DNA of 28,080 nt. Source: an uncultured Agathobacter sp. (GTDB taxonomy: Bacteria > Bacillota > Clostridia > Lachnospirales > Lachnospiraceae). A program made the position numbers and the translations under genes. The stretch covers positions 1 through 28,080 of the forward strand of contig CAKRDT010000027.1 in the NCBI GenBank assembly GCA_934316545.1. Reading direction: 5' to 3'. Of the stretch, positions 109-25,580 are shown in pieces (the stretch's first letter is position 1; every line of letters begins with the position of its first letter). The notes beneath the pieces are model-generated. The model was given only the letters and a program-made list of their open reading frames with translations, did not search any database and was not told the origin of the DNA.

Positions 109-981
109 CTAGACAAGAATTGCATATCCTGCTTCCCACGTTGCGCCTGCTGCAATCACATTCTCATATTCACGGTCACGAAGTTCTCCTTCATAACCAA
201 TGCGGTCGCTTCTTCCGTACCAAGGCTCGATACATACAAACGGCGCACTCGGATCTGCCGGTCTCCACACACCAAAAAGCGGTGCATCCATCTCGATCGT
301 AAGGTATGCTTCTCCTGACGCATTGCACAAAGAGGCCTGATGGATTCCCTGATCCGCTAAAATAAGCGCATCGTTATCAAACATATGCTCATCGATTCGA
401 AGTCTGCGATCCTCTAAGACGTAGCTTTTTGTCGCCTCTCCGACAAGATAGCCATCGATTGTCTGACTTACTATGGTTCCATCCACATCAAATTTCAGAT
501 AACACTCACTCTGCTTTTCCGCCTCATTGATCGGACAGTTGAATGCCGGATGCCCACCGATTGCAAATGGCAGCTCTTCCTGAGACGGATTTTCCACATG
601 CCAGAGGACTTCCACTTTCGTATCGCTCAGGCGATATCCGAGTTTTAATACAAATTCGTATGGATATTTTGCCAACGTTTCCTCGTTGGAGTGCAACACA
701 AACCAGATTTCATTCCCGCTCTGTGTATCCAATGCAAACTCCATATCACGCGCGAATCCATGCTGCCCCATATCATACGTCTTGCCCTTCGTGCGGTACT
801 GCTTACCGCTTACATTTCCTACAAACGGGAACAGGACAGGCGAAGTTCTGCCCCAGTATTTCGGATCTGCACACCACATATATTCCGTCCCGGTTTCCTT
901 TTTGACCAACGATTTCAGCTCCGCACCGTGTGAATCAATCTCGATGCGGATCTTATCATTTTCCAAACCATATCTTGCCAT
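109..981 (-). CDS. Aldose 1-epimerase family protein (LacX/GalM-like mutarotase)
   Basis: The 290-residue product belongs to the aldose 1-epimerase superfamily, closest in layout to the LacX-like branch. Family members interconvert the alpha and beta anomers of hexoses in the cytoplasm. Expected motifs are visible: QHGFARD with His74, GGHPAF with His144 (the likely general acid) and CIEPWYGRSD with Glu252 (the likely general base). There is no signal peptide. The start is supported by AAGGAGGAG at 988-996, 6 nt before the ATG. It is the last gene of the sugar locus, 91 nt after the MglB-like lipoprotein gene, with its own extended -10 promoter. The context suggests it handles sugar brought in by MglBAC. 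The exact substrate (galactose, glucose or a phosphorylated sugar) cannot be read from sequence. Confidence 0.9.
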   Translation of the reverse strand: MARYGLENDKIRIEIDSHGAELKSLVKKETGTEYMWCADPKYWGRTSPVLFPFVGNVSGKQYRTKGKTYDMGQHGFARDMEFALDTQSGNEIWFVLHSNEETLAKYPYEFVLKLGYRLSDTKVEVLWHVENPSQEELPFAIGGHPAFNCPINEAEKQSECYLKFDVDGTIVSQTIDGYLVGEATKSYVLEDRRLRIDEHMFDNDALILADQGIHQASLCNASGEAYLTIEMDAPLFGVWRPADPSAPFVCIEPWYGRSDRIGYEGELRDREYENVIAAGATWEAGYAILV

Positions 982-1072: not shown

Positions 1073-2134
1073 TTAAGGAGTTGTGTTACCCTCATTTGTT
1101 TCCAGATAATGATCCACATTGTCGATCGTGACCTTCTGATACGGAAGATAGACTTCGGTTAGATTTTCAAAATTGATCCCGTCCAATCCTTTTCCCGATA
1201 CCGATGCAAATACGATGGCCGCCATCACCTGCGCCTGGCCTTCTTTATCATTGTAGACCGTTCCTGTAAGACGCCCATCCTTCACAGCCTCTAACGCTTC
1301 CTGCATACCATCAACCCCCAGTATCATCGGCATATTATCCTTTGTATATCCCATGAGCCGGTAACTGTCCAATGCTCCCAAAGCCATATCATCATTATTG
1401 GACAGCACCAGTTCAATCGTATTTCCATACTGCCTGATCAGCTGCTCCATTCGGTTCTGAGCCTGTGCACGCTTCCAGTTTGCAATCTCATAACTAAGCT
1501 TTTCCATCTTTATTCCTTTGGCAAGAATCGTCTCTACCGAGCTGTCCGTTCTTACAATTGCATCCTGATGCCCCATCTCGCCTTCCAAAACCACATACTG
1601 GATCTTTCCATCATGATTTTTGTCGATCGATTTGTCATTTAAAATGAGATCCGCTGCAATTTCTCCCTGCATCTGTCCCGACTGTCTCGCTTTCGCGCCA
1701 ACATAATAAAGCTTATCCCATTGCATCATATCTTCCGCGACCGGTTCCCGGTTAAAGAAAATGATCGGAATATTTTTTTCTTTTGCACTATCTATAATTT
1801 CAGACGGGTCTGTGCGGTCCACCAGATTAATGCACAAAATGTTGCATCCCTCATCAATCATTTCTTTTACCTGATCGTTTTGTGTCTTCTGTGAGCCAAC
1901 AGCATCACGGACCGTCACCATAACATCATACGAATCGCCTTTTTGACTATTTAATTCATTCTTAAAACATTGGATCAGATTGCTGATAAAAAGATCTCCC
2001 TGATCGTAGCATGCAATCCCTACATATATTTCGTTTTGATTGTCGGACTCAGAAGCTCCACAGCCCATGATCAGGCAGCCGATTCCGATAACGGTCAAAA
2101 CGGCAATACAAAGTCTGATTCTATTTTGTCTCAT
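1073..2134 (-). CDS. MglB-like galactose/glucose-binding lipoprotein, canonical domain order
   Basis: The 353-residue product is a type I periplasmic-binding protein close to the E. coli galactose/glucose-binding protein. A signal peptide ends in a lipobox (LIMGC, Cys25), so it is a lipoprotein on the outer face of the membrane. Sugar-contact positions known from the E. coli protein are kept: Asp47 and Phe49 near the N-terminus, Asn128 (FFNREP), His189/Asp191/Arg195 (GHQDAIVR), Trp220, Asn247, Asp275 and Asn295. A calcium-binding loop is present at 171-179 (DKNHDGKIQ). It is encoded with the two-component genes rather than with mglA/mglC, 24 nt after the tethered binding protein. It probably feeds the sensor kinase, although sharing the MglAC transporter is also possible. 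It serves as the reference for the permuted MglB at 9988-11283. Confidence 0.9.
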   Translation of the reverse strand: MRQNRIRLCIAVLTVIGIGCLIMGCGASESDNQNEIYVGIACYDQGDLFISNLIQCFKNELNSQKGDSYDVMVTVRDAVGSQKTQNDQVKEMIDEGCNILCINLVDRTDPSEIIDSAKEKNIPIIFFNREPVAEDMMQWDKLYYVGAKARQSGQMQGEIAADLILNDKSIDKNHDGKIQYVVLEGEMGHQDAIVRTDSSVETILAKGIKMEKLSYEIANWKRAQAQNRMEQLIRQYGNTIELVLSNNDDMALGALDSYRLMGYTKDNMPMILGVDGMQEALEAVKDGRLTGTVYNDKEGQAQVMAAIVFASVSGKGLDGINFENLTEVYLPYQKVTIDNVDHYLETNEGNTTP

Positions 2135-2158: not shown

Positions 2159-3139
2159 TTACTGGCTCATGATAAAAAGCAATTCCTGATTACACTCCGA
2201 AAACAATTCCGATCTGCGGATCACGGTATATTGCACCGTCTGATCCTTCATTTTCCGAATATCTCCGTTCAGTTTCCGGACCACCTGTGTCATACACTGA
2301 TATCCGGCTCCGAATTCATCCGGGACGACCAGACATTTGACGCTGCCATTGTCCAGATAATAGACCGATTCCGTAGAATTACCGATTCCATATACATCCG
2401 CTCCGTGAAGCCGGTTTTCTTTCGAACAGGTTCCGGCTTGTACCACACTCCGATCATCAAGCGTCAAAACGACATCCACCGGTTTTTGCTTCTCCAGAAT
2501 GGTAAGACCATCCTCATTCAGATTGCCGATCAACTTCCAGTCGATTTGCGCCCCCATACGTTCAAGCTCGCTGCAGACAGCCTCCCTCTTCACATAAGCG
2601 ACATCCGACGCCACATCGGACGAAAAGATACCGAAGGTTTTCCCACTGATATCTCCTCCATTGTCATTGAGCACTTCCTGCACCAGCTGCTTCACAAGCG
2701 CAGCCGCATCTGCCTCGGTCGTTGCATATGCAGACTGGCTGCGATTATAACCGGCCGATGACCCGATCAGCATCACCGGTATCTTCGCAGATATCGTTTG
2801 CAAAAGTTCCTCGGAGTCTGCTCCCGGTATCGGTTTGACAATTACCGCATCTGCACCTTTTTTTATTGCAAACTGAATGATCGATGCTTCATCTTCCATC
2901 GATGCAATATCATCCGTACTGATCACTACCATATTGGCCTCACAATCCTCAGAAGCCATGCGAAGACCGTATTTCAGCGATGACCACTGACGGCTGTCCG
3001 AATCAGGAAGTACAACCGCGACTTTATAAACTTCCTTTTCTTTGTTCTGAAAAAGCATCGAACCGGCAAACACAACGACAAGTATTCCAAGCACGATCTC
3101 CAGAATAATGTATTTCTTTGTTCCACTGTGTATATTCAT
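2159..3139 (-). CDS. Membrane-tethered periplasmic-binding-like protein (putative kinase co-sensor)
   Basis: The 326-residue product has an uncleaved-looking membrane anchor (about residues 10-29) and then a substrate-binding fold of the Peripla_BP_4/LacI type, starting at YKVAVVLPDSDS. There is no lipobox cysteine, unlike the two MglB-type proteins here, so it should stay attached through its N-terminal helix. The gene starts 3 nt after the histidine kinase stop and is almost certainly cotranscribed with it. Kinases of the YesM/LytS class are often encoded next to such binding proteins, which present the ligand to the kinase; that role is inferred from position. The sugar ligand is unknown, and conserved galactose contacts are not obvious. 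Confidence 0.8.
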   Translation of the reverse strand: MNIHSGTKKYIILEIVLGILVVVFAGSMLFQNKEKEVYKVAVVLPDSDSRQWSSLKYGLRMASEDCEANMVVISTDDIASMEDEASIIQFAIKKGADAVIVKPIPGADSEELLQTISAKIPVMLIGSSAGYNRSQSAYATTEADAAALVKQLVQEVLNDNGGDISGKTFGIFSSDVASDVAYVKREAVCSELERMGAQIDWKLIGNLNEDGLTILEKQKPVDVVLTLDDRSVVQAGTCSKENRLHGADVYGIGNSTESVYYLDNGSVKCLVVPDEFGAGYQCMTQVVRKLNGDIRKMKDQTVQYTVIRRSELFSECNQELLFIMSQ

Positions 3140-3142
3140 ACC

Positions 3143-4990
3143 TTATTCCTCAACTCTCCTGTCTGTTTCGTGTTCATGGATCTGCCGCCCCTTTTCAAAA
3201 TACTTCTGACGTTCCTCACTGAAGAGTTCCGCCGGCATGCATATGGATACCGTTGTGCCCTCATCCAGTTCACTTTCAATCTTTAATCCATACTCTTTTC
3301 CAAACAGAATCTGAATACGATTATTCACATTTACAAGACCGACTCCCGAACCCTTTTTGTGCACACGCCCCGTATCCGTAAGAAGATCATCAATCTCATC
3401 CGGTGGAATACCTATTCCGTTATCGGTCACAGAAAGAATCAGCATACCATTGTCCATTTTTCCGGAAACTCTAATTTCTCCACAATCTTCCATCCCACGG
3501 ACTCCATAATTGATGGCATTCTCAAGGAGCGGCTGCAACGATAATTTTACGGTACAATATTCATAGAGTGACGGATCCACATCGAACACGACAGAAAACT
3601 GGTTTTTGTAACGTGTCATCTGAATATTCATATAACTTTGTGCATGCTGAAGCTCATCTCTCACGCGAATGATCGTATGCCCCTTCGAGAGACTGATTCG
3701 AAACAGCTTCGCAAGCTGCGTGATCATAAACGAGGCTTCCTCATTTTTGCCGCCTTCTACCATCCATGTGATGGAATCTAACGTATTATACAAAAAATGC
3801 GGATTAATCTGGCTTTGGAGCGCATCCAATTCGCTTTTGCGCCGCTCATTCTGCTGCCACACCACTTCTTTCATCAGTTCTGCATTCTGTTGATACGATT
3901 TTTGGATAGACTCTCCCAGATGGCGGATCTCCGTAGAACCTCCGATGTAGATTTGGGGTTCCCTGTCGGCTTCGTACTTTGTAACCGAATCATTCAATTT
4001 GCGAATCGGTCTTGAAACGCGAAGCGATACGATCCGGTTTATGCCCACAAGCATCATGACCATCAGAAGACTCAGCATGATGATAAACTGTCTGGCATCG
4101 ATCATTTCATCCGTAAAAGCAGAATACGGAACCACTCCGACCAATTTCCATCCGGTATACCCGATGGAGTTTACAAGTACCTTGCGATGCTCCCCCTGAA
4201 ACCTTTCATCGTACACACCATCCTTTTTCTTTGCAGTCTCCAGATTGCTTTCGCTTACGATTCTTCTGGAGAGCTGCACCTGCTGCGGATGATAAATAAT
4301 CTCACCGTTGCTGTCGCACAGATAAAAATACTGTCCGTTACCGAGAGTATTAAGCTGCCGCATCATCCTGGAAATACTTGAATAATCCATATCAACAAGA
4401 AGCACACCAAGCTTTGCGATCTCTCCATTTGACATATCCACTGCGCGGCTGGAAGAAATAACCCAGTAATAACGTCTGGTTCCATCATCAAAGATATTTT
4501 GGATATGAGGTGTTGAAAAATGGATATTTTCCACCTCGCGTTCTGCCTCAACGAACCACTGCTGCGACGTAACATCGATCTCCTCTTTCTGCGCCGCAAC
4601 CGGCTCTGCTGCAAGCAGTTCCCCATTGTTCGTATAGACAGCGATGCTTCGCAGCTTGTCTTTATTGGCTTCATAAAGCAGCTGCATCTGTTCCTTGACC
4701 TGTGCCAAATCCGTAGCGAAATTGGTTTCCTTGATAATATTGTAATATGCTGCGTCCGATACCTGCCGCATATTGACCAGGTATTCTTCTATATTATCTT
4801 CCGTCTGTTCCATCAGCTTCGCTGTGCTGTTAACGCTCTCCTGTCGGGAAGCAGAAGCGAACAGGATATACATGACACTTCCCATGCATAAAACAATAGA
4901 AATAGAAATCAGTGAAAAAGCAATCATGATGGTTGTCTGAATTTCTCCCGGTTTCCATTTTTTTAAATGCTTCAATCGTTTTTTATTCAA
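3143..4990 (-). CDS. Sensor histidine kinase, YesM/LytS type
   Basis: The protein is 615 residues from the chosen TTG. Order: transmembrane helix (about 20-45), extracellular Cache-like sensor (about 46-300), second helix (about 301-320), HAMP-like linker, His_kinase domain with NPHFLYN (His398) and a GHKL ATPase with LLENAINYG, DNGIGI and GSGVGLVNVNNR. It should phosphorylate the response regulator encoded just upstream. The reading frame is open back to an ATG at 5050, but that start would overlap the regulator by 68 nt and has no clear ribosome binding site. TTG at 4988-4990 overlaps the regulator stop by 8 nt, with GGAG 10 nt upstream, and is favoured. The next gene begins 3 nt after the stop and encodes a tethered binding protein. 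Confidence 0.9.
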   Translation of the reverse strand: MNKKRLKHLKKWKPGEIQTTIMIAFSLISISIVLCMGSVMYILFASASRQESVNSTAKLMEQTEDNIEEYLVNMRQVSDAAYYNIIKETNFATDLAQVKEQMQLLYEANKDKLRSIAVYTNNGELLAAEPVAAQKEEIDVTSQQWFVEAEREVENIHFSTPHIQNIFDDGTRRYYWVISSSRAVDMSNGEIAKLGVLLVDMDYSSISRMMRQLNTLGNGQYFYLCDSNGEIIYHPQQVQLSRRIVSESNLETAKKKDGVYDERFQGEHRKVLVNSIGYTGWKLVGVVPYSAFTDEMIDARQFIIMLSLLMVMMLVGINRIVSLRVSRPIRKLNDSVTKYEADREPQIYIGGSTEIRHLGESIQKSYQQNAELMKEVVWQQNERRKSELDALQSQINPHFLYNTLDSITWMVEGGKNEEASFMITQLAKLFRISLSKGHTIIRVRDELQHAQSYMNIQMTRYKNQFSVVFDVDPSLYEYCTVKLSLQPLLENAINYGVRGMEDCGEIRVSGKMDNGMLILSVTDNGIGIPPDEIDDLLTDTGRVHKKGSGVGLVNVNNRIQILFGKEYGLKIESELDEGTTVSICMPAELFSEERQKYFEKGRQIHEHETDRRVEE

Positions 4991-6590
4991 CCTTTGTATA
5001 CTCCGATCTGTATTTCGATGGTGAAACCCCATATTGCCGCTTAAATACATAGCTAAAATAGTTAGGATCTGTATAACCTACACTCTGCGCAATCACGTAG
5101 CTTTTCTCCGTTGTCTCAATCAGAAGGCGGGCCGCCTTTCCCATACGATATTGTGTCAGATAGGCAACAAACGAGTCCCCTGTCTCTTTTTTGAACATAC
5201 TCGAAAAATAGGAATTGGATATCGCAAGTGCATCACAGATATCATCCAGTGATAAATCCTCCTTCTGATAATTATTGTGAACATATTCCTTTGCCTGCCG
5301 TATCATCGACTGCGCAGAACTGTCTCGTGCACTCTGGATTTTCTCATGCAGCCTGATACAGATTTCAAGCAGCCATTGTTTTAACACATCCTTTTCCATC
5401 GTGATCAGATTGGAGTACTCTGCGATCATTTCGCCGGCCTCCTCCCCCATACCGGCATCATTATTGATGGTAAAACGATAAAGTGTACTGACCAGCTCCA
5501 TTACCGTCACCTGATGCTCCTTTATGGATCTGGAATGTTCATAGATCTTATCCAGATAATTCTCAATTGCATCACCAATATCTTCCGCTGTTCCGAGACG
5601 TATCATCTTAAGCACCTGCGCCAGTTCCGATTCACTGTCGGTCACTGAGATTTCTGCTTTCTGCGGAATGATCTCCCGAATATTGATGGCGCGTTCCCCA
5701 CCGTAAAGCACCCGGTAGGATACTGCCTCTTTTGCACTGTTGTATGACTGCGGCAGATCTATGATATTCTGACATATCTGCCCGATTCCGATTGTCACAA
5801 CCGCCCCCATAATACGATACATATATTTGCAGAACCGGTCACATTCATCCGTGAGTTCCGGAATCTCGCTCTCCTCCTGAATCTGTACGATCATCAGGGT
5901 ATTGTCCAGGTAGGTAAAACTGCTTGCATTCCATTTTTCTGCCAGCTGCTCCCTTACCTGCTTGTCGACCGACACTCTGAGCAGCCGGACGTCCATATCT
6001 TTTGGGGCTTTGGATGCCGAAGTATGCACAACCAGGCAGCAAAAAAGCGGACCGTCAAACGAGATCTGGAAGTTTTCCATATATCCGGCAAGCTCGTCCT
6101 CATGGATTTTACCCTCGATCAAAGTCGAATAAAAATTTGCCTGAAACAACGGAAGGGAATGCATATAATATTCCTGCAGGACCGCCACGTTTTTCTTTTC
6201 GTCGATCTCCTGATCCATCTTCTCCTTGAGTTTTCGGAATACATTGGTCAATTCACCCGCATTCAAAGGCTTTAACACATACTCCTCAATTTCTAAGTGA
6301 ACCGCTTCTCTCGCATACTCAAATTCATCGAATCCGGTAAAAAGCAGCACGTGTGTCGTCGGGTATTTCTGCCTGATATTGCTGCACAGCTCCATTCCAT
6401 CCATGTATGGCATACGAATATCCGTCATCACCACATCCGGCTGGTTTTCTTCCATGATTTCCAACGCCTTGATTCCGTTGTTCGCATGCCCGATAACGGA
6501 AAATCCCAGCTCTTCCCACGGAATCTTATGCATGATCACCTGAATAACTTCTTCTTCATCATCTACAAGAAGTAATGTATATTGATTCAT
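4983..6590 (-). CDS. Response regulator, REC plus AraC-type DNA-binding domain (YesN-like)
   Basis: The 535-residue product has an N-terminal receiver domain with acidic pocket Asp10/Asp11, phosphoacceptor Asp57 (MTDIRMPYMDG), Thr85 and Lys107 (VLKPL). A long middle region follows, then a C-terminal AraC/XylS double helix-turn-helix (about 430-535) ending in SVGYTDPNYFSYVFKRQYGVSP. It is the first gene of the regulatory operon, directly downstream of the mglBAC terminator, and overlaps the kinase gene. The probable target is the mglB promoter region and perhaps its own operon; this is inferred from position. The start ATG at 6590 is preceded by a G-rich GGGGAAAAAGG stretch and an extended -10 element about 40 nt further up. 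Confidence 0.93.
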   Translation of the reverse strand: MNQYTLLLVDDEEEVIQVIMHKIPWEELGFSVIGHANNGIKALEIMEENQPDVVMTDIRMPYMDGMELCSNIRQKYPTTHVLLFTGFDEFEYAREAVHLEIEEYVLKPLNAGELTNVFRKLKEKMDQEIDEKKNVAVLQEYYMHSLPLFQANFYSTLIEGKIHEDELAGYMENFQISFDGPLFCCLVVHTSASKAPKDMDVRLLRVSVDKQVREQLAEKWNASSFTYLDNTLMIVQIQEESEIPELTDECDRFCKYMYRIMGAVVTIGIGQICQNIIDLPQSYNSAKEAVSYRVLYGGERAINIREIIPQKAEISVTDSESELAQVLKMIRLGTAEDIGDAIENYLDKIYEHSRSIKEHQVTVMELVSTLYRFTINNDAGMGEEAGEMIAEYSNLITMEKDVLKQWLLEICIRLHEKIQSARDSSAQSMIRQAKEYVHNNYQKEDLSLDDICDALAISNSYFSSMFKKETGDSFVAYLTQYRMGKAARLLIETTEKSYVIAQSVGYTDPNYFSYVFKRQYGVSPSKYRSEYTKVE

Positions 6591-6712: not shown

Positions 6713-8365
6713 TTACTTCTTCTGAACATATTTCAGGCAGTCGAGTGTTACGGCTACAAGAATAATGATGCCGGAGAATACGAACTGAAGGTTTGTATCG
6801 ATACCAAGGATTGTAAGAGAGTATGTCAATGCAGTAAAGATGAACACACCAGTTACAACACCGGAGATTTTACCGATACCACCGGTAAAGGATACACCAC
6901 CAACTACACAGGCTGCAATGGCATCCATATCCCAGCCCTGTCCATAAGCTGCGGATCCGGAACCTACCATTCGGATACACTCAAGCCATGAACCGAATCC
7001 ATATAACACACCTGCCATAACAAATGCGCAAAGTGTAATTGCAAATACAGAAATACCGGACACTGCTGCTGCCTCAGGGTTTCCACCTACTGCATATAAA
7101 TATTTTCCAAATGTTGTCTTATTCCAGATGAACCATACAATAATGATTGCTGCAAGTGCCCAGAGAATAATTGTCGGGAAACCATTAATCTTAGGGATGA
7201 TCATGTTTGGAATCGTAGGCTCGATTGCACCGAAGGATACACCCTTTGTTGCGTAAGTTACCAGACCGAATATTACAAGCATATTTGCCATGGTTGAAAT
7301 AAACGGATGCATCTTAAACTTCGCAGTAAAGAATCCGGCAATACTCGTAAAGAACGTACAGAACACGATACACAGTACTAAAGCAAGTAATACGCGTGCT
7401 CCTGTCGGCATACCTGTAAAGTCAAAGATATGTCCGAACACACCACCGGTGTTGATTCCCTGATGCATCACGATCGTTGCAGTGGTCATACCCATACCAA
7501 CCATTCGTCCTACAGAAAGATCCGTTCCGGCAAGGAGGATCAATCCTGCAACACCCAGTGCAAGGAACATTCTAGGCGAAGCCTGCTGTAAAATGTTCAG
7601 CACATTATTATAGGTAAGAAGAGGAGTTCCCTTCTTAATCGGTGTGATAATACACAAAGCGATGAAAATGATAAGGATTGCAATATACAGACCATTCTGC
7701 AGGAGGAACGAACGACGGTTGAACGTATATTTGTAATTCTCCCACTTCTGTGCTCTTGATTCCATAAATGTAAATTTGGAAAGTCTCAAATTATCGATCA
7801 GATGATATTTATGACGGAATGCCTCATGCTTTCTGTCCTTAATCTCCTGATATTCCTTTTCAAGTTCCAGCTTTGCATTAGAAAGACGGTTCTTATGTAC
7901 ATAATTCTCGTCTTTGATCTCCCGCTGCTCCGAGAGTGATGCCAGATTATCTTTGTGCTGCTTGTCAAGTTCTGCAAGCTTTCTCTCGTAATTCTCTTTT
8001 GCCTGCACCTTCTGTGCTTCGCAGCTTTCTTTTACCTGGTTAAAATAATCCACTTCAAAGTGTGCTTTTAAATATGCTTCCGCATCCGCGATCAGCTTGT
8101 CGATTTCAGCCTTGTTCTTTGCTTCCACTGCTTTTGCTTTGGAAAGATCTTTACTGATTTCGGCAATATGCTCGCTTTTCTCTGTCTTTGACAATGTACG
8201 GTCTCTCTTGATCGCATCAATCGTATTATTGTATGAGAGTACCTTTGCCGTACCATCTTCTCGCAAAGCATCAATTTTTTTCTGTATTCCACCGACATAT
8301 TCATCGATCGGCTTGCGCAGGGCGAGTTCCTGCTCTGCCGTAAGAATTTTACTGTTATTAGCCAT
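6713..8365 (-). CDS. mglC: Galactose/methyl-galactoside ABC permease with long N-terminal extension
   Basis: The 550-residue product ends in about 330 residues of a typical MglC/RbsC-type membrane permease. The first helix is at about 224-241, and family stretches such as LALGVAGLILLAGTDLSVG and VGGVSFTGGIGK are present. Usual family length is about 335, so the first ~215 residues are extra. They are soluble, rich in Lys, Glu and Ala with long heptad-like stretches (about 60-185), and look like a cytoplasmic coiled coil. No known domain is recognised in them. There is one clean frame, with AAAGGGAG before the ATG, so this is not an artefact of a wrong start. It works with MglA and MglB to import hexose and is the last gene of the operon. 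Confidence 0.93.
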   Translation of the reverse strand: MANNSKILTAEQELALRKPIDEYVGGIQKKIDALREDGTAKVLSYNNTIDAIKRDRTLSKTEKSEHIAEISKDLSKAKAVEAKNKAEIDKLIADAEAYLKAHFEVDYFNQVKESCEAQKVQAKENYERKLAELDKQHKDNLASLSEQREIKDENYVHKNRLSNAKLELEKEYQEIKDRKHEAFRHKYHLIDNLRLSKFTFMESRAQKWENYKYTFNRRSFLLQNGLYIAILIIFIALCIITPIKKGTPLLTYNNVLNILQQASPRMFLALGVAGLILLAGTDLSVGRMVGMGMTTATIVMHQGINTGGVFGHIFDFTGMPTGARVLLALVLCIVFCTFFTSIAGFFTAKFKMHPFISTMANMLVIFGLVTYATKGVSFGAIEPTIPNMIIPKINGFPTIILWALAAIIIVWFIWNKTTFGKYLYAVGGNPEAAAVSGISVFAITLCAFVMAGVLYGFGSWLECIRMVGSGSAAYGQGWDMDAIAACVVGGVSFTGGIGKISGVVTGVFIFTALTYSLTILGIDTNLQFVFSGIIILVAVTLDCLKYVQKK

Positions 8366-8383: not shown

Positions 8384-9892
8384 TTATAGGTATTTTGCAC
8401 TGAGTCTTAACAACTCTTCCTGATTGGTTTCTTTCGTGTTAACGATTCCTGAAAGATGTCCGTTGGACATAACACCAATTCGATTGGTAATACCAAGAAT
8501 CTCCGGCATCTCGGAAGATACTACGATGATCGTTTTACCTTCTTTTGCCATCTGGATGATCAGCTCATAAATTTCATATTTCGCACCTACATCGATTCCT
8601 CGTGTCGGTTCATCCATCATGAATACCTGTGGTCCTCTTTCCAGCCACTTTCCGAAGATAACCTTCTGCTGATTACCGCCGGAAAGACTCGTGATCATAT
8701 CTTCCGGTCCCATACATTTGGTATGCATGATCTTGATTTCATTGGCCGTCGCGTTTGTCATCTTCGTATCCGACAACGGTATTCCCGCTTTATAAGATCC
8801 AAGATTGGCAATCGTTGTATTAAAAGTAAGATCACCTTTTAAGAATAAACCATTCGCTTTACGTTCCTCTGTAATCATCGCAAAGCCATAATCCATTGCT
8901 TCTTTTGCACTCTTAAAATTCATAAGGTGTCCATTCAGGTAAACACGGCCTGCTGCTCTGGTACGAACACCAAAAATCGTTTCCAGAAGTTCTGTACGTC
9001 CTGCACCAACCAATCCGTATAATCCAAAGATTTCACCTTTGCGGACATCAAACGAAATGTCCTGCAGATGTGGCTCATACTTTGTTGACAGATGCTGCAC
9101 GGATAAGACAACATCCCCCGGAGTATTATCAACCGGTGGAAATCGGTTTTCCAGCACACGTCCAACCATCGCTGTGATCAGTTCATTCATATCAGTTTCT
9201 TTTGCCGGCTTGGTCATAACGAGATTACCATCTCGAAGAACGGAGATTTCATCACAGATTTCAAAGATCTCATCCATCTTATGCGAAATATAGATCAGTG
9301 AAATTCCTTGCGACTTCAACATTCTCATCATTTCAAACAGCTTATCAACTTCCTGAACCGTCAGGGACGATGTCGGCTCATCAAGAACAATAACCTTGGA
9401 ATTATAAGAAATTGCCTTGGCGATCTCACACATCTGACGTTGTGAAACCGACATCTTTTTCATCGGCTGCTCCAGATTGACCGTCATTCCCAGCTTTCGG
9501 AACAGTTCGGACGCCTCAGACTTCATTCTGTTTTCATCAACCATGCCCAATCCATTGCGCGGATAACGTCCGAGGAACAAATTGTCCACTACGTTTCTTT
9601 CCAAACACTGATTTAATTCCTGATGCACCATTGCAATTCCATTCTCAAGGGCATCTTTTGGTCCGGAAAAGTTTACTTCTTTTCCTTCAAGATAGATCGT
9701 ACCTTCATCTTTCTGATAGGTGCCGAAGAGGCACTTCATCATCGTTGACTTACCGGCGCCATTCTCACCCATAAGACCCATGACCGTACCCTCTTTCACA
9801 TCCAGATTGATGTGGTCAAGAACCCGGTTTCGTCCGAAGGATTTACACATGCCGCGTATGGATAAGACGATGTTATCTTTCTTATCTTCCAT
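8384..9892 (-). CDS. mglA: Sugar ABC transporter, two-domain ATPase
   Basis: The 502-residue product has two nucleotide-binding domains in tandem, as in MglA, RbsA and XylG. The first has Walker A GENGAGKST (42-50), a degenerate signature (VSQRQM) and Walker B with VIVLDEPTSS. The second has an altered Walker A GLVGAGRTE (292-300) with no lysine, and an intact LSGGNQQKV (402-410) with MMDEPTRGID. That asymmetry is normal for this family. It powers the MglC permease from the cytoplasmic face. AGGAG precedes the ATG. The gene is separated from mglB by 95 nt containing a hairpin, and mglC starts 18 nt after its stop. Confidence 0.95.
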   Translation of the reverse strand: MEDKKDNIVLSIRGMCKSFGRNRVLDHINLDVKEGTVMGLMGENGAGKSTMMKCLFGTYQKDEGTIYLEGKEVNFSGPKDALENGIAMVHQELNQCLERNVVDNLFLGRYPRNGLGMVDENRMKSEASELFRKLGMTVNLEQPMKKMSVSQRQMCEIAKAISYNSKVIVLDEPTSSLTVQEVDKLFEMMRMLKSQGISLIYISHKMDEIFEICDEISVLRDGNLVMTKPAKETDMNELITAMVGRVLENRFPPVDNTPGDVVLSVQHLSTKYEPHLQDISFDVRKGEIFGLYGLVGAGRTELLETIFGVRTRAAGRVYLNGHLMNFKSAKEAMDYGFAMITEERKANGLFLKGDLTFNTTIANLGSYKAGIPLSDTKMTNATANEIKIMHTKCMGPEDMITSLSGGNQQKVIFGKWLERGPQVFMMDEPTRGIDVGAKYEIYELIIQMAKEGKTIIVVSSEMPEILGITNRIGVMSNGHLSGIVNTKETNQEELLRLSAKYL

Positions 9893-9987: not shown

Positions 9988-11283
9988 TTACTGATTAAGG
10001 ATTGCTGTATATGAAGCTGCATTGTCTGTCTTAACCATGTTGATTGCAAATGCATCATACTGGCTTGGGTTTCCTAAACGGTTTGTAATATTGGACTCTG
10101 TCTGTCCGTCACCACCGATGTACTCAACATCAAGATTTAACAGATCATCATACTTCTGAAGAAGTGGCTGGTAAGTAGAGCTTAAGAAGTTATCAGCTGC
10201 ATTATAAATGTTCAGCCATACCTTCTTTGTTGCATGAGCAGACTCATCAAGCTGGTTTGAAACCGGAGCCCATGTAACTGTAGAATCTGTGAAATCCTGA
10301 TAGTTGTCAGCTGTAACTGCTACGTTTAATGCGTAGTAAGAACGCTGATCAGCATCATATTTGTAAACATCCTCAGTTAATACGTTTCCTGCATCATCAG
10401 CAGTTCCGATACCAGTGTCGATGTCAACGCCGTCTAATGCGTTACGAAGAACACGAAGTGTTAAGTAAGCCTGAACGTCAGCATGCTGGCTGATTGTTCC
10501 GCCGTATCCCTCTGCGATAGCTGCAACAGCATCACTGTTTGCATCGTATCCGAATGTAGCTACCTTGTTATCTTTTGACCATGCATTGAACATTGACATT
10601 CCCATTCCATCATTGTTAGATGCAACGATATCAATCTGATCGCCGAATGAAGATGACCATGTTCCGATTGCATTACCTGCTGTAGCAGCATCCCATGTTG
10701 CTCCTGCTGAGTTCTTCATTTCCTGTGAAGCAAGCTCACGTACTACATAATCTTTACCATTGACAGTAATCTTTCCATCCTGTACAACGCTTGCAGATCC
10801 GTCTGTGTTTGTTCCTGCCGGGTCACTGACGATTTCACCATTATTGTCAACTGCTGTTCCAAGAGCCTTACGAACACCTCTTGTACGAGCGATGGAATCA
10901 TTATGTCCGATATCACCGATTGCAAGTACGTATCCGATCACGCCATCACCGTTGCGGTCGATGGTATCAATATTTTTCTCAATGTAATCTGCGATCATCT
11001 GTCCCTGAAGTTCAGCACCCTGATTTGCGTCGAAACCTACATAGTAAGTATCTTTATTAAAGTTTAACGCTGTCATATCAAGTTCGCCTGTTGAACTGTT
11101 CGATGGCTGACGATTGAACCATACTAAAGGCTTATCCTTGTTGGCAACTTCTCCGGAGTTTGTAGCAGAAGCATTTCCGCCGCCCTGTGTTCCTGAGTTC
11201 GATGCATCTCCACCTGAGCCACATGCCATAGATGACATAGCAAGGATTGCTGCCATAGTTAAAACCACGATTTTTTTCTTCAT
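9988..11283 (-). CDS. mglB: Circularly permuted galactose/glucose-binding lipoprotein
   Basis: The 431-residue product is the binding protein of the mglBAC operon. A signal peptide with lipobox (SSMAC, Cys21) and a Gly/Ser/Asn-rich linker lead to residue 50, where the fold enters at what is residue ~120 of the canonical paralogue (PLVWFNRQP matches PIIFFNREP). It then follows normal order: calcium loop DRNGDGVIG (109-117), GHNDSIAR (127-133), Trp197, SNNDGM (222-227), FGYD (Asp247), to the usual C-terminal strand near 318-331. A ~20-residue linker follows, and residues 353-431 are the normal N-terminal segment (VWLNIYNAADNF with Asp364 and Phe366; AFAINMVKTDNA matching CINLVDRTDP). Sugar contacts are kept except the Asn256 equivalent, which is Gln266. 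GGGGG precedes the ATG by 9 nt. Confidence 0.93.
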   Translation of the reverse strand: MKKKIVVLTMAAILAMSSMACGSGGDASNSGTQGGGNASATNSGEVANKDKPLVWFNRQPSNSSTGELDMTALNFNKDTYYVGFDANQGAELQGQMIADYIEKNIDTIDRNGDGVIGYVLAIGDIGHNDSIARTRGVRKALGTAVDNNGEIVSDPAGTNTDGSASVVQDGKITVNGKDYVVRELASQEMKNSAGATWDAATAGNAIGTWSSSFGDQIDIVASNNDGMGMSMFNAWSKDNKVATFGYDANSDAVAAIAEGYGGTISQHADVQAYLTLRVLRNALDGVDIDTGIGTADDAGNVLTEDVYKYDADQRSYYALNVAVTADNYQDFTDSTVTWAPVSNQLDESAHATKKVWLNIYNAADNFLSSTYQPLLQKYDDLLNLDVEYIGGDGQTESNITNRLGNPSQYDAFAINMVKTDNAASYTAILNQ

Positions 11284-11503: not shown

Positions 11504-13537
11504 TTAAATCTGGTTTCCCACGATCCTGTAATATGATTTTGAAGTGATTTTAAACACAATATAATAAATGATTACAAACACGATAAATGTAACAAGCAGA
11601 CATCCTGCAAACAATGATGTGTTCGTCAGATTCAACATTGCAAGCAGTCTGGCCATCATCGGAAATGCTGCAAGCGTATGGATGGCTGCAGTCACAAGCG
11701 GCAGGAAAAAGACGATGCGTACCTGCGACCGGATCGATGCCTTCACCTCACGGTTGCTCATTCCGACTTTCTCCATGATCTCGTAGCGTTGCTTATCCTC
11801 ATACCCTTCCGAAACCTGTTTGTAGAAGATGATCATAACCGTTACCATAAGGAAAATGATTCCAAGATAGATACCGATAAAGAAGAATCCACCGTAGATT
11901 GCAAAGAATCCCGCCCTATTTGCCTGACGGCTCTCCACATAGTAATCCTTCACATCGGACTGTTCCTCCTTGGATGGCACAAGTTGCTTTCTGACCGCTT
12001 CGCCGAATGCAGCTTTCTGCTCGTCGGTGCCCGCAGGATCAATCCCTATGACATCGTTGTACTGATTGCCTCGGATCGACGCTGCATCGGCAAACAGATT
12101 CTGCAGTGTCTCCTCGGAATCTACAACCACGTAATAATCGTCCTCCAGCATGCTTGCCATATAATTATCCTGTGCGGCGGCATACACATGCGAATCCGCA
12201 ACCGGAAACAAATGACCAAACAAAGTAACCGTGTCTTCGTCATATTCCTTTGAAGCGTAAATGTTGACTTTTCCCTCCGGCACCTTCGGAACATCTGTTT
12301 CCGTAAATGCATCGTCCATCTGGATCAGGCTGTCTCTCGTGATCAGATTAACAAGCGACATCTGTCCAGCAAAACTGCCCCGGTTCGCCAGCGTAAAGTC
12401 CGCATTATCGCGGACTGCCAAAACATGCACATACTGATAATGCCGGAAATTTTCTGCGAAAACCTTCTGATCTTCCAGAATCTTTCTGATTTTTTTCTCA
12501 TTCTCTGCCGGTACATCATTCTTTAAATCTTCCTGCAAAGCATTCACATCCGAATACTCGGTGTACAATGTAGTCTCCATCGGATAACGCGCCGCAAGTT
12601 CATCATCCACGCCCGCATACATACTCACTGTCATGGACACCATGACGAGTACCATGGTGGAAAGGATACAGATACTTGCCAGTCCCGCCGCATTCTGCTT
12701 CATACGATAGATCATACCCGATACCGCGGCAAAATGCTTCGGATGATAATAGAACTTCTTATTGCTGCGCAGACCTTTTAACAAAGCGATACTCCCCGCG
12801 GTAAAAAGCAGGTAGGTTCCGATCATAACCAGTACGACTGCAATAAAGAACATTCCAAGAACCTTGAGCGGATTTTGCGTCGTAACCGCAATATAGTAAG
12901 CGACAGCAATACATGCCACCCCGAAGATGGTGCTAAACGCTTTGGTCTTCGGTTCCTTCTCCCCGACATTGCTGCCACGGAGCAGTTCGATCGGGTTTGC
13001 AAGTCCGATCTGCATCAGATTATGCACAAGTGTCAGAAAATACAGAACACCGAACGCAACCAGAGTCAGTTCGATTCCGGAACCGTTCACAGAGAACATA
13101 ATGCTTTCTTTATACTGAAGAATGCGATACAGAAGCATGAGTATCAGTTTTGAGAATACAATTCCGAATGCCAGTCCCCCGCCGATTGCGAGCAAAGCAA
13201 CAAACAGGGTCTCAAGCCCCAGTACTTTCGCAATATGGCGTTTCTCCATGCCAAGAATGTTATACACACCGATCTCACGTTTTCTGCGCTTGATGATAAA
13301 ACTATTCGTGTAGAAAATAAAGATATAGGAAAAAATCCCCATTACACCAACGCCCAGCGCAAAGATTATACGAAGGTTTCCCGCGCTCGGCATCTTGTCG
13401 AGTCCCTTGTTCCCGTTTAAAAAGAGGATCAGATAAAACATCGCCACCGTCATAATACCCGAGAGTATATATGGAAGATAAAGCGGCTTATTGTTTTTCA
13501 TATTGGTTTTCGCCAGCTTTACATACAGATTATTCAT
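11504..13537 (-). CDS. Bce-type ABC transporter permease (FtsX-like)
   Basis: The 677-residue product has the layout of the BceB/VraE/YxdM family: clusters of membrane helices with FtsX-like repeats near both ends and one large extracellular domain (roughly 305-545) between helices 7 and 8. These permeases recognise peptide antibiotics that bind cell-wall lipid intermediates, and also pass a flux signal to a partner kinase. The frame continues to an ATG at 13549, but ATG 13535-13537 (MNNLYVKLAKTN) overlaps the ATPase stop by 8 nt and fits translational coupling. The peptide substrate cannot be inferred. Confidence 0.9.
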   Translation of the reverse strand: MNNLYVKLAKTNMKNNKPLYLPYILSGIMTVAMFYLILFLNGNKGLDKMPSAGNLRIIFALGVGVMGIFSYIFIFYTNSFIIKRRKREIGVYNILGMEKRHIAKVLGLETLFVALLAIGGGLAFGIVFSKLILMLLYRILQYKESIMFSVNGSGIELTLVAFGVLYFLTLVHNLMQIGLANPIELLRGSNVGEKEPKTKAFSTIFGVACIAVAYYIAVTTQNPLKVLGMFFIAVVLVMIGTYLLFTAGSIALLKGLRSNKKFYYHPKHFAAVSGMIYRMKQNAAGLASICILSTMVLVMVSMTVSMYAGVDDELAARYPMETTLYTEYSDVNALQEDLKNDVPAENEKKIRKILEDQKVFAENFRHYQYVHVLAVRDNADFTLANRGSFAGQMSLVNLITRDSLIQMDDAFTETDVPKVPEGKVNIYASKEYDEDTVTLFGHLFPVADSHVYAAAQDNYMASMLEDDYYVVVDSEETLQNLFADAASIRGNQYNDVIGIDPAGTDEQKAAFGEAVRKQLVPSKEEQSDVKDYYVESRQANRAGFFAIYGGFFFIGIYLGIIFLMVTVMIIFYKQVSEGYEDKQRYEIMEKVGMSNREVKASIRSQVRIVFFLPLVTAAIHTLAAFPMMARLLAMLNLTNTSLFAGCLLVTFIVFVIIYYIVFKITSKSYYRIVGNQI

Positions 13538-14297
13538 GTTTCTCACCACCTGTCGTCAAAACGGTCAGTGCGTCAGAAATCTTAACATACAGCTGCTCGT
13601 TCGTCATATTGCCGCGATAAATCTGGTGGAACACTTCTCCATCCTTGATAAAAAGTACACGATTCGCGTGACTTGCCGCCTTGGTACTGTGCGTTACCAT
13701 AAGGATCGTCTGCCCATCCTCATTAATCTGGTTAAACAACTCCAGCAGTTCACCGGATGCCTTAGAGTCAAGTGCTCCTGTCGGCTCATCCGCAAGGATC
13801 AGTTCGGGTTTTGTGATCAGTGCACGTGCAACTGCCGCTCTCTGCTTTTGTCCGCCAGACACCTCATACGGATATTTGTCAAGGATCTGATCGATTCCAA
13901 GCTTGATAGCGATCGGCATCAGCCACTCCTGCATCTGTTTGTATGGAACACTCGATAACACAAGTGGAAGAAAGATATTGTCTTTCAGTGAGAAATTATC
14001 CAGCAGATTAAAGTCCTGAAATACAAATCCGAGATGCTCCCGGCGAAAGGTTGCCAGCTCCTTTTCCTTGACCGATACCAGATTCTTTCCGTTGATCAGC
14101 ACTTCTCCGGCCGTCGGCTTATCGAGTGCTGCCAAAATATTAAGCAGCGTTGTCTTACCCGATCCTGACTCTCCCATGATCGCGACATACTCTCCCTGTT
14201 CCACAGAAAAATTGATATTGGACAATGCCTGTATCTGATTGCCTCCGAACCGTGTCGTATATATCTTTTTCAGATTACTAACTTCTAAGATTGCCAT
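13530..14297 (-). CDS. Bce-type ABC transporter ATPase
   Basis: The 255-residue product is a single nucleotide-binding domain of the MacB/BceA class. It has Walker A GESGSGKTT, Q-loop FVFQDFNLLD, signature VSGGQKQR and Walker B LILADEPTGALDS, with the family N-terminal stretch KIYTTRFGGNQ. It energises the FtsX-like permease whose gene overlaps its 3' end. Two in-frame ATGs lie close together. AAGGAG is only 2 nt from the first (14306) and 11 nt from the second (14297), so the second is preferred, giving a start at MAILEV. Its promoter and operator lie in the 170-nt gap after the kinase gene, so the transporter is probably induced through the neighbouring two-component system. Confidence 0.93.
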   Translation of the reverse strand: MAILEVSNLKKIYTTRFGGNQIQALSNINFSVEQGEYVAIMGESGSGKTTLLNILAALDKPTAGEVLINGKNLVSVKEKELATFRREHLGFVFQDFNLLDNFSLKDNIFLPLVLSSVPYKQMQEWLMPIAIKLGIDQILDKYPYEVSGGQKQRAAVARALITKPELILADEPTGALDSKASGELLELFNQINEDGQTILMVTHSTKAASHANRVLFIKDGEVFHQIYRGNMTNEQLYVKISDALTVLTTGGEKHE

Positions 14298-14342
14298 CTT
14301 TTCCATTGCTCCTTCTCATTTTGTTTCGTTCTTACAAATGGA

Positions 14343-14351
14343 AGTATAGCA
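14343..14351 (-). promoter_or_regulatory. Extended -10 element of the Bce-type transporter promoter
   Basis: The minus strand reads TGCTATACT about 46 nt before the preferred ATPase start. The -35 position (TGGCTG at 17-nt spacing) is poor, as expected for an activator-driven promoter. The operator at 14399-14418 lies about 50 nt further upstream. Confidence 0.55.
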
Positions 14352-14398
14352 AAAGGCCGAAACGCCAGCCATCGATTCAACTTACATTTCGACCTCCT

Positions 14399-14418
14399 AT
14401 CTTACAAGTTTGTAAGAT
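14399..14418. promoter_or_regulatory. BceR-type operator (inverted repeat)
   Basis: A perfect 9-bp inverted repeat with a 2-nt centre reads ATCTTACAAGTTTGTAAGAT. It contains TTACA-AGTT-TGTAA, which matches the TNACA-N4-TGTAA pattern described for BceR-like regulators. Its position between kinase and ATPase genes, upstream of an extended -10, is where such operators control the transporter genes. Confidence 0.8.
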
Positions 14419-14465
14419 TACACATATTTTCACCATTCACGTTTTCCGTTCTCAGACACAACCTG

Positions 14466-15482
14466 TCACTTCTTTATCTTTTGAAATCCGATCCACACCG
14501 TCGTCCCGATTCCATACTCCGATTCGAGCCGGATGCTGTGTCCCAGCTTATTTAATACGAGCTTGCTTAAATGCAACCCAATTCCCGTCGATTTCTTGTC
14601 GGAATGACCATTGTAACCGGTATACCCGTTCTCAAACACGCGCGTTAAGTCCTCCGCCTTAATTCCGATTCCGTGATCCGTAATCTTCAGATAGTCCCAG
14701 TCCGGCTCATGCACGGTCTCGATGTTGATTAACTGCCCCTCATGCGAATATTTGATCGCATTCGAAAGAATCTGTTCGATTGCAAATGATACCCACTTTG
14801 CATCGGTCGTAACCATGATATCCGTGCCTGCATATTGAAGCGGAATGCGTCTGCGTACCATAATCTTCGCATATTTGCGAACCACCTCGCGCACAAGTTC
14901 ATCTAAATGAAGTTTCTCAAGTACATAATCATTGCCCGGTGTATTCACCCTCTGATACTGCAGTGCCATATTGACATACTGTTCAATATCAAACAATTCT
15001 TTTTCCATCTCCGACTGCTGTTGTAACAGTTCTCCGTTCTCCATCTGATTCCGTTGCACCTGAAGCAAAAGCTGCAATGCAGAGATCGGTGTCTTAATCT
15101 GATGTACCCACATGGAATAGTATTCGCGCATCTCCGTCTGATTTCTTGCATAGGCTGCCGCTTCCAGCTTCCGCTTCATCGAGACGTCCTCAATCATTTC
15201 CTGATAAAGATTCTCGATCATATCCCCACTCTCCCGAATCAGAGTACTCTCATTTTTAAGATGATTCCCGGCTTCCTCCAACTTTCGGATTCTCCCCACA
15301 TAGGCGGCAAAACCACTCACAAATAACATGACAAACAAGAATAGTTCCAATCCAGCAAAATACATAATATCCCATGCACAAACATGCATCAGGAACATAT
15401 AAAACAACGCAAACGCCATCATAAGTACCGTACATGCCATCCAAAGGCGATTTCTTTTCATATAAGACGCTATCCGTTTCAT
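14466..15482 (-). CDS. Intramembrane-sensing histidine kinase, BceS type
   Basis: The 338-residue product starts with two membrane helices (about 12-32 and 40-60) joined by only a few outside residues, so it has no sensor domain of its own, the mark of BceS-like kinases. The dimerisation domain carries His127 in MWVHQIKTPISAL. The ATPase domain has the N-box (EQILSNAIKYS), DHGIGI and STGIGLHLSKLVL. Such kinases receive their signal from the partner ABC permease. The start ATG overlaps the regulator stop as ATGA, so the two are translationally coupled. The transporter genes follow after the operator-containing gap. Confidence 0.93.
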   Translation of the reverse strand: MKRIASYMKRNRLWMACTVLMMAFALFYMFLMHVCAWDIMYFAGLELFLFVMLFVSGFAAYVGRIRKLEEAGNHLKNESTLIRESGDMIENLYQEMIEDVSMKRKLEAAAYARNQTEMREYYSMWVHQIKTPISALQLLLQVQRNQMENGELLQQQSEMEKELFDIEQYVNMALQYQRVNTPGNDYVLEKLHLDELVREVVRKYAKIMVRRRIPLQYAGTDIMVTTDAKWVSFAIEQILSNAIKYSHEGQLINIETVHEPDWDYLKITDHGIGIKAEDLTRVFENGYTGYNGHSDKKSTGIGLHLSKLVLNKLGHSIRLESEYGIGTTVWIGFQKIKK

Positions 15483-16150
15483 CCGATTCGGTAACCAATT
15501 CCTTTCTTTGTCACAATAAAGTCCTCAAGTCCAATCGTTGCAAGCTTCTTGCGTAGACGATTCACATTGACAGAAAGCGTGTTCTCATCCACGTACTCAT
15601 CATTCTCCCAAAGCTTCGTCATCAGCGCATCACGGGAAACGATCTTCTCCTTATTTTCAAACAAGGTCTGCAAAATACGAAGCTCATTCTTCGTCAGTTC
15701 CACTTTCTGCTCCTCATACATCAGTGTCGCATCCGTAAGATTAAGAATCGCGCCATTGTGCTCACAAACACTTGCACTCCCCGCGAAATCATAGCTTCTT
15801 CGAAGCAGGGCCTGCACCTTCGCCGTCAATACTTCGAGTGTAAACGGTTTCGGAATGAAATCATCCCCACCCATACTGACTGCCATCACAATATTCATAT
15901 CATCCGACATCGATGATAAAAAGATGATCGGCAGCTGCGATACCTGACGGATCTGCGTACACCAGTGATACCCGTTATAAAAAGGCAGATGAATATCCAT
16001 CAACACAAGCTGCGGATCAAACGCCGCAAACTCCGCCATCACATCATTAAAATTTTCCACACAGTGCACCGTGTAATTCCACTTTTCCAAATGACTTTTT
16101 ACGGTCTTGGCAATGATTTCATCATCTTCCACGATAAAAATGCGATACAT
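15479..16150 (-). CDS. OmpR-family response regulator, BceR type
   Basis: The 223-residue product has a receiver domain with Asp9/Asp10, phosphoacceptor Asp52 (MDIHLPFYNG), Ser79/Ser80 and Lys101 (IPKPF). A winged-helix DNA-binding domain follows (about 130-223, with VDENTLSVNVNRLRKKL). GAGGAG precedes the ATG. It is the first gene of the regulator-kinase pair and the obvious candidate to bind the inverted repeat at 14399-14418 and switch on the ABC transporter genes. Confidence 0.93.
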   Translation of the reverse strand: MYRIFIVEDDEIIAKTVKSHLEKWNYTVHCVENFNDVMAEFAAFDPQLVLMDIHLPFYNGYHWCTQIRQVSQLPIIFLSSMSDDMNIVMAVSMGGDDFIPKPFTLEVLTAKVQALLRRSYDFAGSASVCEHNGAILNLTDATLMYEEQKVELTKNELRILQTLFENKEKIVSRDALMTKLWENDEYVDENTLSVNVNRLRKKLATIGLEDFIVTKKGIGYRIG

Positions 16151-19341: not shown

Positions 19342-19692
19342 TCAATTCAATTTTTCAGACCATTCCGCTTCCTTAAAACCAACCAGCACAGTACCACCAT
19401 TTACAACAAGAGGTCGCTTTACCAACATTCCATTTGTAGCAAGTAACTGAAGCTGTTCCTCTTCACTCATTGTTGGAAGCTTGTCCTTAAGCTGCATTTC
19501 TTTATAAAGAAGTCCGCTAGTATTAAAGAACTTCTTAAGCGGAAGTCCGCTCTTTCCATACCATTCCTTTAATTCATCATAAGTAGGATTCACCTCTACA
19601 ATATGACGCTCAGTATATTTTATATTATGCTCATCCAGCCATTTTTTAGCCTTTTGACAGGTTGAACATTTTGGGTAACATATAAATAACAT
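19342..19692 (-). CDS. Possible separately translated Spx/ArsC-like protein (internal start)
   Basis: Codon 386 of the fusion is an ATG that coincides exactly with the usual first residue of Spx/ArsC-family proteins (MLFICYPKCSTC). AAGGAG lies 9 nt upstream, inside the fusion ORF. The 116-residue product is the normal length of the family, has the CxxC pair and the cis-proline region (RPLVV), and would be a cytoplasmic reductase-like or regulatory protein. It may be made alone as well as in the fusion. This suggests an originally independent gene whose upstream neighbour became joined to it in frame. Confidence 0.55.
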   Translation of the reverse strand: MLFICYPKCSTCQKAKKWLDEHNIKYTERHIVEVNPTYDELKEWYGKSGLPLKKFFNTSGLLYKEMQLKDKLPTMSEEEQLQLLATNGMLVKRPLVVNGGTVLVGFKEAEWSEKLN

Positions 19693-25367: not shown

Positions 25368-25373
25368 TATAAT
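25368..25373 (+). promoter_or_regulatory. Probable -10 box of the mutS2 promoter
   Basis: TATAAT on the plus strand, in the divergent gap, lies about 207 nt before the mutS2 start. The -35 region (TTTTCC at 17-nt spacing) is poor. If used, the transcript has a leader of about 200 nt with two hairpins. Confidence 0.4.
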
Positions 25374-25464
25374 GATAACAACAGTGGCAACATCATATTT
25401 CTGCGATTGTGCTTGCACAAATGAGCAGAATATGATTTTTGCCACGCCAAACACCGAGGGTGAA

Positions 25465-25492
25465 ATACCATGTCATACATACGACATGGTAT
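25465..25492 (+). other. Leader hairpin 1 upstream of mutS2
   Basis: A perfect 10-bp inverted repeat (ATACCATGTC and GACATGGTAT) with an 8-nt loop. No T-run follows, so it is not an ordinary terminator. The stem contains an ATG that opens an in-frame extension of mutS2, which I regard as not used. Confidence 0.75.
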
Positions 25493-25511
25493 GGGAGCCC
25501 GAGGTGGTTGC

Positions 25512-25545: not shown

Positions 25546-25580
25546 AGTTATACATACACTTATATGATAGAGGTCACACC

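Follow-up and report, generated by a model that had tools for sequence, protein, structure and literature searches.

To our knowledge, transport proteins that are circularly permuted in nature have rarely been described. The closest system to the locus considered here is MglB-2 of Treponema pallidum, which was described as circularly permuted, with a crystal structure and biophysics (Brautigam et al. 2016; PMC4990184). The available part of that article extends the permuted topology to further treponemes and to many Gram-positive bacteria, often from the gut, sets out an explicit Gram-positive/gut clade, and proposes “Type Ic/Cluster Bc” as the name of the class. It also reports that permease homologues are distributed similarly to the permuted proteins, and suggests horizontal sharing.

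The stretch of uncultured Agathobacter DNA analysed here (the window, 28,080 nucleotides) carries a member of the 2016 class in an ordinary gut-commensal galactose/glucose operon. The original prediction knew of no permuted MglB serving an ordinary mgl operon, and on this point it is superseded by the published class with its crystal structure (PMC4990184, in the part available). Natural permutation was previously known in this protein as one topology; what is new is a third cyclic order among the relatives, together with evidence that the opening of the ring has moved.

The mgl operon, its extended permease and its putative sensor neighbours

The open reading frame at 9988..11283 (minus strand) encodes a permuted MglB, the D-galactose/D-glucose-binding component, as a 431-aa lipoprotein whose parts follow the order A-B-C by structure search, Pfam, alignment and segment HMMs. 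An AGGGGG-type ribosome-binding site lies just 5' of its ATG (at 11283), and a signal peptide (residues 1-21; 11221..11283, minus strand) leads to the lipobox Cys21, ending SMAC-GS; a Gly/Ser/Asn-rich linker is also present. Segment A (residues 48-110; 10954..11142, minus strand), delimited by its HMM and 5jx2-type alignment, runs from the strand bearing Asn57 (Asn91 in E. coli) as far as the Ca2+ loop. Segment B (residues 113-335; 10279..10947, minus strand), placed by HMM and alignments, holds His127, Asp129, Arg133, Trp197, Asn224, Asp247 and Gln266. Segment C (residues 350-430; 9994..10236, minus strand), placed by Pfam (PF18610), HMM and alignment, corresponds to the former N-terminal strands and holds Asp364 and Phe366. 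Between B and C, by alignment, a linker at about residues 332-352 (10228..10290, minus strand) leads from the old C-terminus to the old N-terminus; it is 21 residues long in the sequence and would take the position of the fourth hinge, or extended piece, of MglB-2 as the available account of that structure gives it. The linker of the original prediction is supported. The old C- and N-termini are joined through these ~20 residues, with the chain opening just ahead of the Asn91-equivalent strand. Segment HMMs recover A, B and C in this order in a six-frame scan; since they were built from the permuted MglB family, they speak to order and not to homology.

MglA (8384..9892, minus strand) and MglC (6713..8365, minus strand) lie downstream, as expected of the ordinary mgl operon that had been predicted, and the arrangement permuted mglB-mglA-mglC is conserved in relatives. 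MglA is a two-domain ABC ATPase; the model that fits it best, NF008215 MglA, gives 669 bits and so stays under the cut-off of 828. The features of a CUT2 importer occur together in one operon: a two-domain ATPase, a BPD_transp_2 permease and a type I binding protein. On the best reading, the gene encodes the lipoprotein that binds substrate for a galactose/glucose ABC importer of the CUT2 type (MglB-MglA-MglC); this protein would shut on D-galactose or D-glucose like a Venus flytrap and then pass the sugar to MglC/MglA. The locus almost certainly holds a permuted, MglB-2-class galactose/glucose receptor of an MglB-MglA-MglC importer, with neighbours that are probably a sugar-sensing module.

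In MglC, 550 aa long, the usual permease takes up the last ~335 residues (Pfam, NCBIfam, alignment). The preceding ~215 residues (7721..8365, minus strand) form a helical, coiled-coil extension, for which Pfam gives no match and no description was found in the open-licence literature searched. AlphaFold renders it as long helices, and it is mainly the extension that is modelled with confidence (blocks over residues 11-190 average 82-92). Across 80 loci with an A-B-C binding protein the extension occurs in 76, and no MglC is visible in the other four (L004, L032, L042, L062); among the 76, one has a broken frame (L050), two are cut by a contig end (L030, L076) and three carry a shorter extension (L047, L054, L080). 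An intact short MglC was found at none of the 80.

Could the permuted binding protein functionally need the extended permease? Permuted MglB and the extension occur in the same 17 of 150 genomes of the Roseburia faecis family (G001), in the same 12 of 148 genomes of the order of Holdemanella biformis (G440; one more weak extension match, E 8e-4), and in the same 3 of 291 genomes of a class sample (two more weak extension matches), counts to be read with the overlap of these samples in mind, as G001, G440 and others recur. Both also occur in Treponema saccharophilum, whose MglC is extended too (562 aa). In 146 genomes of a further family (G726), the binding-protein query matches 21, 18 permuted and 3 linear, and an extension alignment matches 23: the same 18 strongly and 5 weakly. 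Since 13 of these 18 genomes, together with the window and T. saccharophilum, supplied the sequences for that alignment, only the absence of other strong matches is informative; an HMM built from A-B-C loci and the window finds the extension at 18 of the 18 permuted loci of this family, at E 1e-11 or better. In seven linear-MglB operons of the Roseburia faecis family MglC has 337-410 aa, and in E. coli 336. However, linear MglB stands beside an MglC of 625-629 aa in three operons (L177, L182, L183), so permutation is no precondition of a long MglC. The MglCs of these three fall outside the permuted-partner clade and give no match to the extension HMM; the extension alignment has a weak match to that of G749 (E 3e-4). 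The strict two-way link first suggested by the identical genome sets is ruled out by these operons: permuted MglB goes with extended MglC, and not the reverse. Moreover, the permuted-partner MglCs form one clade (100/100), so co-inheritance of the operon can by itself explain their company, and the shared occurrences count for less where the query came mostly from the same genomes or the samples overlap. A functional need is therefore conceivable but doubtful.

Beyond MglC, all on the minus strand, lie a response regulator with an AraC-type DNA-binding domain (4983..6590), which we take to be YesN-like, and a dCache sensor histidine kinase (3143..5050), presumably LytS/YesM-like, both recognised by domain search. 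Next come a second sugar-binding-protein-like sensor (2159..3139), a linear MglB paralogue of order C-A-B (1073..2134; Pfam, NCBIfam and structure comparison), which is probably the sensing arm, and an aldose 1-epimerase-like protein (109..981; PF01263). The second sensor matches the putative sugar-binding protein 6gq0, titled GanP, at E 1.8e-4, a level at which de novo TIM barrels appear in the same list, so the match lends the sensing role slight support. Linear MglB, second binding protein, kinase and regulator are probably a sugar-sensing module that would control the operon.

The presence of two MglB genes in one cluster, here and in many relatives, would fit an origin of the permuted gene from the adjacent paralogue (1073-2134) by local duplication. 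However, a tree of the shared core, built without two rows, pairs the permuted clade with a linear transport MglB (L120; support 83) and then with MglB of E. coli and Fusobacterium (70), and sets the sensor paralogues in a group of their own (95). Supports are moderate; a wider tree likewise shows L120 as the closest linear protein to the permuted clade (89.1/92). With the sensor paralogues kept apart from the permuted clade in these trees, local duplication is very unlikely and was rejected; the neighbouring paralogue appears not to be the closest linear relative of the permuted gene.

Several observations concern the setting of these genes. In one relative (L105, NZ_CP143948.1) the A-B-C operon and sensor module lie on a 252-kb plasmid record of Agathobacter rectalis, with an integrase and a transposase of the IS91 type close by; the T. 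saccharophilum copy is also plasmid-borne. Elsewhere in the window, 11504-16150 (minus strand) encodes an FtsX-type ABC permease, an ATPase, a histidine kinase and an OmpR-type regulator, presumably a Bce-like antimicrobial peptide module. One open reading frame at 19342-20847 (minus strand) joins DUF6037 (partial), RES and ArsC/glutaredoxin-like domains, either an unusual fusion or a joined remnant. A Clostridiales-1 RNA (RF01699, 93.5 bits) at 25373-25554 (plus strand) lies just upstream of a MutS2-like open reading frame and overlaps its start as mechanically called.

Placement of segment C and the sugar contacts

The prediction that this MglB is circularly permuted holds on three counts: a co-linear structural match, the order of its segments, and the MglB-2 structure. 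The structures of MglB-2 (5jx2, 6bgc, 6bgd) align with residues 48-428 in a single stretch (E 3e-89 to 2e-87), and E. coli/Salmonella-type MglB structures align in pieces only. Pfam places PF18610 at 352-422 and splits PF13407, and the linear MglB model NF011924 matches in two stretches with 88 bits, below its cut-off of 420. The protein is 46% identical to that of T. saccharophilum, and its homology to the solved MglB-2 is clear. Relatives are encoded in 465 genomic stretches, from which the 80 loci were kept; Roseburia faecis supplies the top-ranked of these (86%), and a protein of an uncultured Lachnospiraceae reaches 90% over residues 46-431, which makes a Lachnospiraceae source of the window likely. 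The best 120 listed relatives are all ordered A, B, C, 118 plainly and 2 with repeated B matches.

Segment C is the demanding part. The original prediction matched both portions of the protein to the linear paralogue in the window, and this stood for residues 46-335, which score 211 (BLOSUM62) against 38.5 +/- 5.8 for shuffled sequences, with none of 1000 shuffles as good. It did not stand pairwise for residues 350-431, which score 28 where shuffles average 30.7, with 728 of 1000 shuffles as good; the pairwise match of segment C to the local paralogue is therefore not evidence on its own. Profiles reach further. By hhalign, segment C falls on residues 30-116 of the linear protein (P 5e-4, probability 31%). 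The C-segment HMM finds the N-terminus of a linear MglB from another locus (L128; residues 31-99, 22 bits) and that of E. coli MglB (27-93, 7 bits); on seven other linear MglBs it gives nothing in three and 1-5 bits in four, one of these at the wrong end. PF18610 itself matches the L128 protein at about residues 31-92 by our arithmetic (E 2.7e-4, 22.1 bits, below cut-off).

These profiles accompany the decisive evidence, which is the crystal structure of MglB-2: there, the residues homologous to segment C are the first three strands of the N-lobe (PMC4990184, available text). By our count on the structure alignment, the strands of this permuted part fall at residues 353-360, 384-390 and 411-414 of the window protein. 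An AlphaFold model made from 20-23 close homologues has strands at 353-360, 384-389 and 411-416, at low confidence (mean pLDDT 49.9). Foldseek matches it to 5jx2 (E 2e-26, TM 0.39-0.45), which is not independent evidence; with a model this poor, the topology rests on homology.

Are the C-terminal 80 residues instead an unrelated domain, added to a truncated MglB that was never permuted? Residues 350-431 do lack pairwise similarity to the linear paralogue, and in MglB-2 the same comparison gives only 13% identity (PMC4990184, available text). This is nevertheless contradicted by the crystal structure of the homologous MglB-2 (5jx2), in which this part supplies the first three N-lobe strands (same source), by the in-register profile match and the 22-bit match to the L128 N-terminus, and by the equivalents of Asp14 and Phe16, which sit in segment C and are invariant in 83 of 83 rows; an unrelated domain is highly improbable and was rejected. 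An assembly or frameshift artefact has a negligible chance, since nothing at the window speaks for one (its frame and operon are intact) and the same order recurs in the best 120 listed proteins and in many named genomes, so that the original worry over an assembly join falls away, although isolated relatives do show internal repeats (P0004), broken mglA and mglC frames (L050) or a truncated mglA without MglC (L004). The repeats in P0004, a protein of 525 aa, are two and in tandem.

The sugar contacts lie at their predicted new positions, Gln266 included. By our count on the structure-search alignment and Table 2 of PMC4990184, Asn57, His127, Asp129, Arg133 and Trp197 correspond to N19, H89, D91, R95 and W145 of MglB-2, and Asn224, Asp247, Gln266, Asp364 and Phe366 to N172, D195, Q215, N311 and F313. 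None of the ten varies across the 83 aligned rows (the window, the 80 loci, T. saccharophilum and A. rectalis). Nine are as in MglB-2; the tenth, Asp364, is as Asp14 of E. coli and is kept in T. saccharophilum, whereas MglB-2 has Asn311. MglB-2 shows a marked glucose preference (PMC4990184, available text). Asp364, kept as E. coli Asp14, suggests that the permuted MglB may retain galactose binding, and the best reading of the sequence is a lipid-anchored galactose/glucose receptor of an ABC importer.

Anchoring, or tethering, has been proposed as the driver of permutation (PMC4990184, in the part available). With starts as called, four of the 83 A-B-C proteins in the alignment lack a Cys within residues 11-75, so anchoring may not be universal. 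The proteins of L024 and L032 (also L007 and L049) lack the lipobox Cys and are apparently not lipid-anchored.

A third cyclic order and the probable movement of the opening

PF18610 has matches in 7 of 195 genomes of a phylum sample, that of Holdemanella biformis (G440). One of the seven (G726) encodes a 411-residue lipoprotein ordered B, C, A (L127, 5483-6718, minus strand). No published description of this order was found in the open-licence literature searched; the homologue search of the 2016 study demanded more than 90% coverage and well-matching N-termini (PMC4990184, available text), and would thus probably have passed over it. Used as a query, the L127 protein matched 413 proteins at E<=0.001, of which the best 120 were taken (P0241-P0360). 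With the query (n=121), segment matches class these as 111 B-C-A, 7 A-B-C, 2 B-C and 1 B; a second method, BLAST with T. saccharophilum segments, gives 107 B-C-A, 7 A-B-C, 3 B-A, 2 B-C and 1 B (n=120). Where organisms are named among the listed sources, they are Bacilli or Firmicutes bacterium. A Cys lies within residues 12-35 in 104 of 107 B-C-A proteins. In the family of G726 the 18 permuted loci (L127, L159-L175) comprise 15 B-C-A and 3 A-B-C, with segment B in two pieces at L175, and six-frame scans of all 18 show the segments in the called order; in second tandem copies C lies below the 12-bit print limit of that scan and at 10-13 bits in another. A 498-aa protein of another genome (L176; G862:C5, 6588-8081, plus strand) shows weak B and C only, with no recognised mglA or MglC in its stretch, and is not classed as permuted; a related protein may lie in G855 (L156).

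At L127, galactokinase-like and GalT-like genes, so named from their sequences, lie upstream of the B-C-A operon, at a distance of some 2.5 kb. In the main group of B-C-A proteins (14 rows) the equivalents of N91, H152, D154, W183, N211 and D14 are kept in 14 of 14, F16 in 13, and R158, D236 and Gln256 in 12 each. Four rows make up a short group with Asn/Glu at H152/D154; in a long tandem group (5 rows) Gln256 and F16 vary, and D14 does so once. The first Asp of the Ca2+ loop is present in 9/9 linear, 9/15 A-B-C and 0/23 B-C-A rows, the alignment at the chain end being uncertain. Judged by alignment, the B-C-A chain ends fall in the former Ca2+ loop.

All three cyclic orders thus exist: C-A-B (E. 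coli), A-B-C (the window, Treponema) and B-C-A (uncultured Bacilli). How are they related? The B-C linker, of 16-22 residues in A-B-C, 20-26 in main-group B-C-A, 16 in short-group and 21-42 in long tandem proteins, can be aligned between A-B-C and B-C-A proteins, and a linker common to both permuted orders is most simply explained by one closure of the ring followed by two openings. At the C-A junction, in the rows printed, three main-group B-C-A proteins are ~9 residues longer than four linear MglBs and two short-group proteins are near-native, a difference that hints at two separate B-C-A openings.

A tree of 47 taxa splits permuted from linear proteins (100/100) and places the short B-C-A proteins (L170-L175) deepest (98.8/100); by our count the maximum-likelihood tree needs at least two switches between A-B-C and B-C-A. 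With the short group left out, the B-C-A proteins form one clade (0.862) and the A-B-C proteins are paraphyletic. In the MglC tree the short group sits, weakly supported, with the partners of A-B-C proteins. By AU tests, reciprocal clades (p 0.00016) and one clade of all B-C-A proteins (p 0.003) are rejected, and one clade of all A-B-C proteins is not (p 0.059).

At four loci (L166, L168, L169, L174) two B-C-A genes are directly adjacent or overlap by a few bases; they encode 507-613 aa and are followed by mglA and an MglC of ~650 aa (L168 is cut by a contig end). Such a tandem contains A-B-C across its junction, as the classical duplication route would have it, and is a plausible intermediate of the order switch. 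Taken together, these observations very probably reflect one closure through the B-C linker and two openings, with more than one switch being probable and tandem genes as possible intermediates; the permuted MglB would then be no single, fixed rearrangement. The relatives form a natural series that reads one binding protein from three different starts, so that the origin and movement of permutations become testable in one family, and they offer natural GGBP opening sites to biosensor designers.

Comparison with known systems

Three-component sugar-sensing systems of the GanPST and XylFII-LytS type resemble the putative sensor module of the window, as far as genes go, in placing a sugar-binding sensor, a kinase and an AraC-type regulator beside a sugar operon; unlike them, the window module has two binding proteins. 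MglB of E. coli and Salmonella (GGBP, Type I/Cluster B) shares with the permuted protein a common fold, the contacts, a D-x-N-x-D Ca2+ loop and an mglBAC operon, whereas its order is C-A-B and the E. coli MglC, of 336 aa, has no extension. The B-C-A proteins (L127 and relatives) have the same segments A, B and C, an alignable B-C linker, mglA and a long MglC, but their opening lies between A and B, in what was the Ca2+ loop, and that of the window protein between C and A.

The nearest likeness is to T. pallidum MglB-2 (TP0684; 5jx2, 6bgc, 6bgd), with which, in the available description, the window protein shares the segment order, ten contact positions, Gln in place of Asn256 and an ABC transporter operon, and probably the position of the linker or fourth hinge. 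It departs from MglB-2 in keeping Asp at the position of Asp14, in a longer insertion ahead of Trp197 and in a Gly/Ser/Asn linker. With its A-B-C order and its contacts at the permuted positions, the window protein is a member of the Type Ic/Cluster Bc class as the available part of PMC4990184 defines it.
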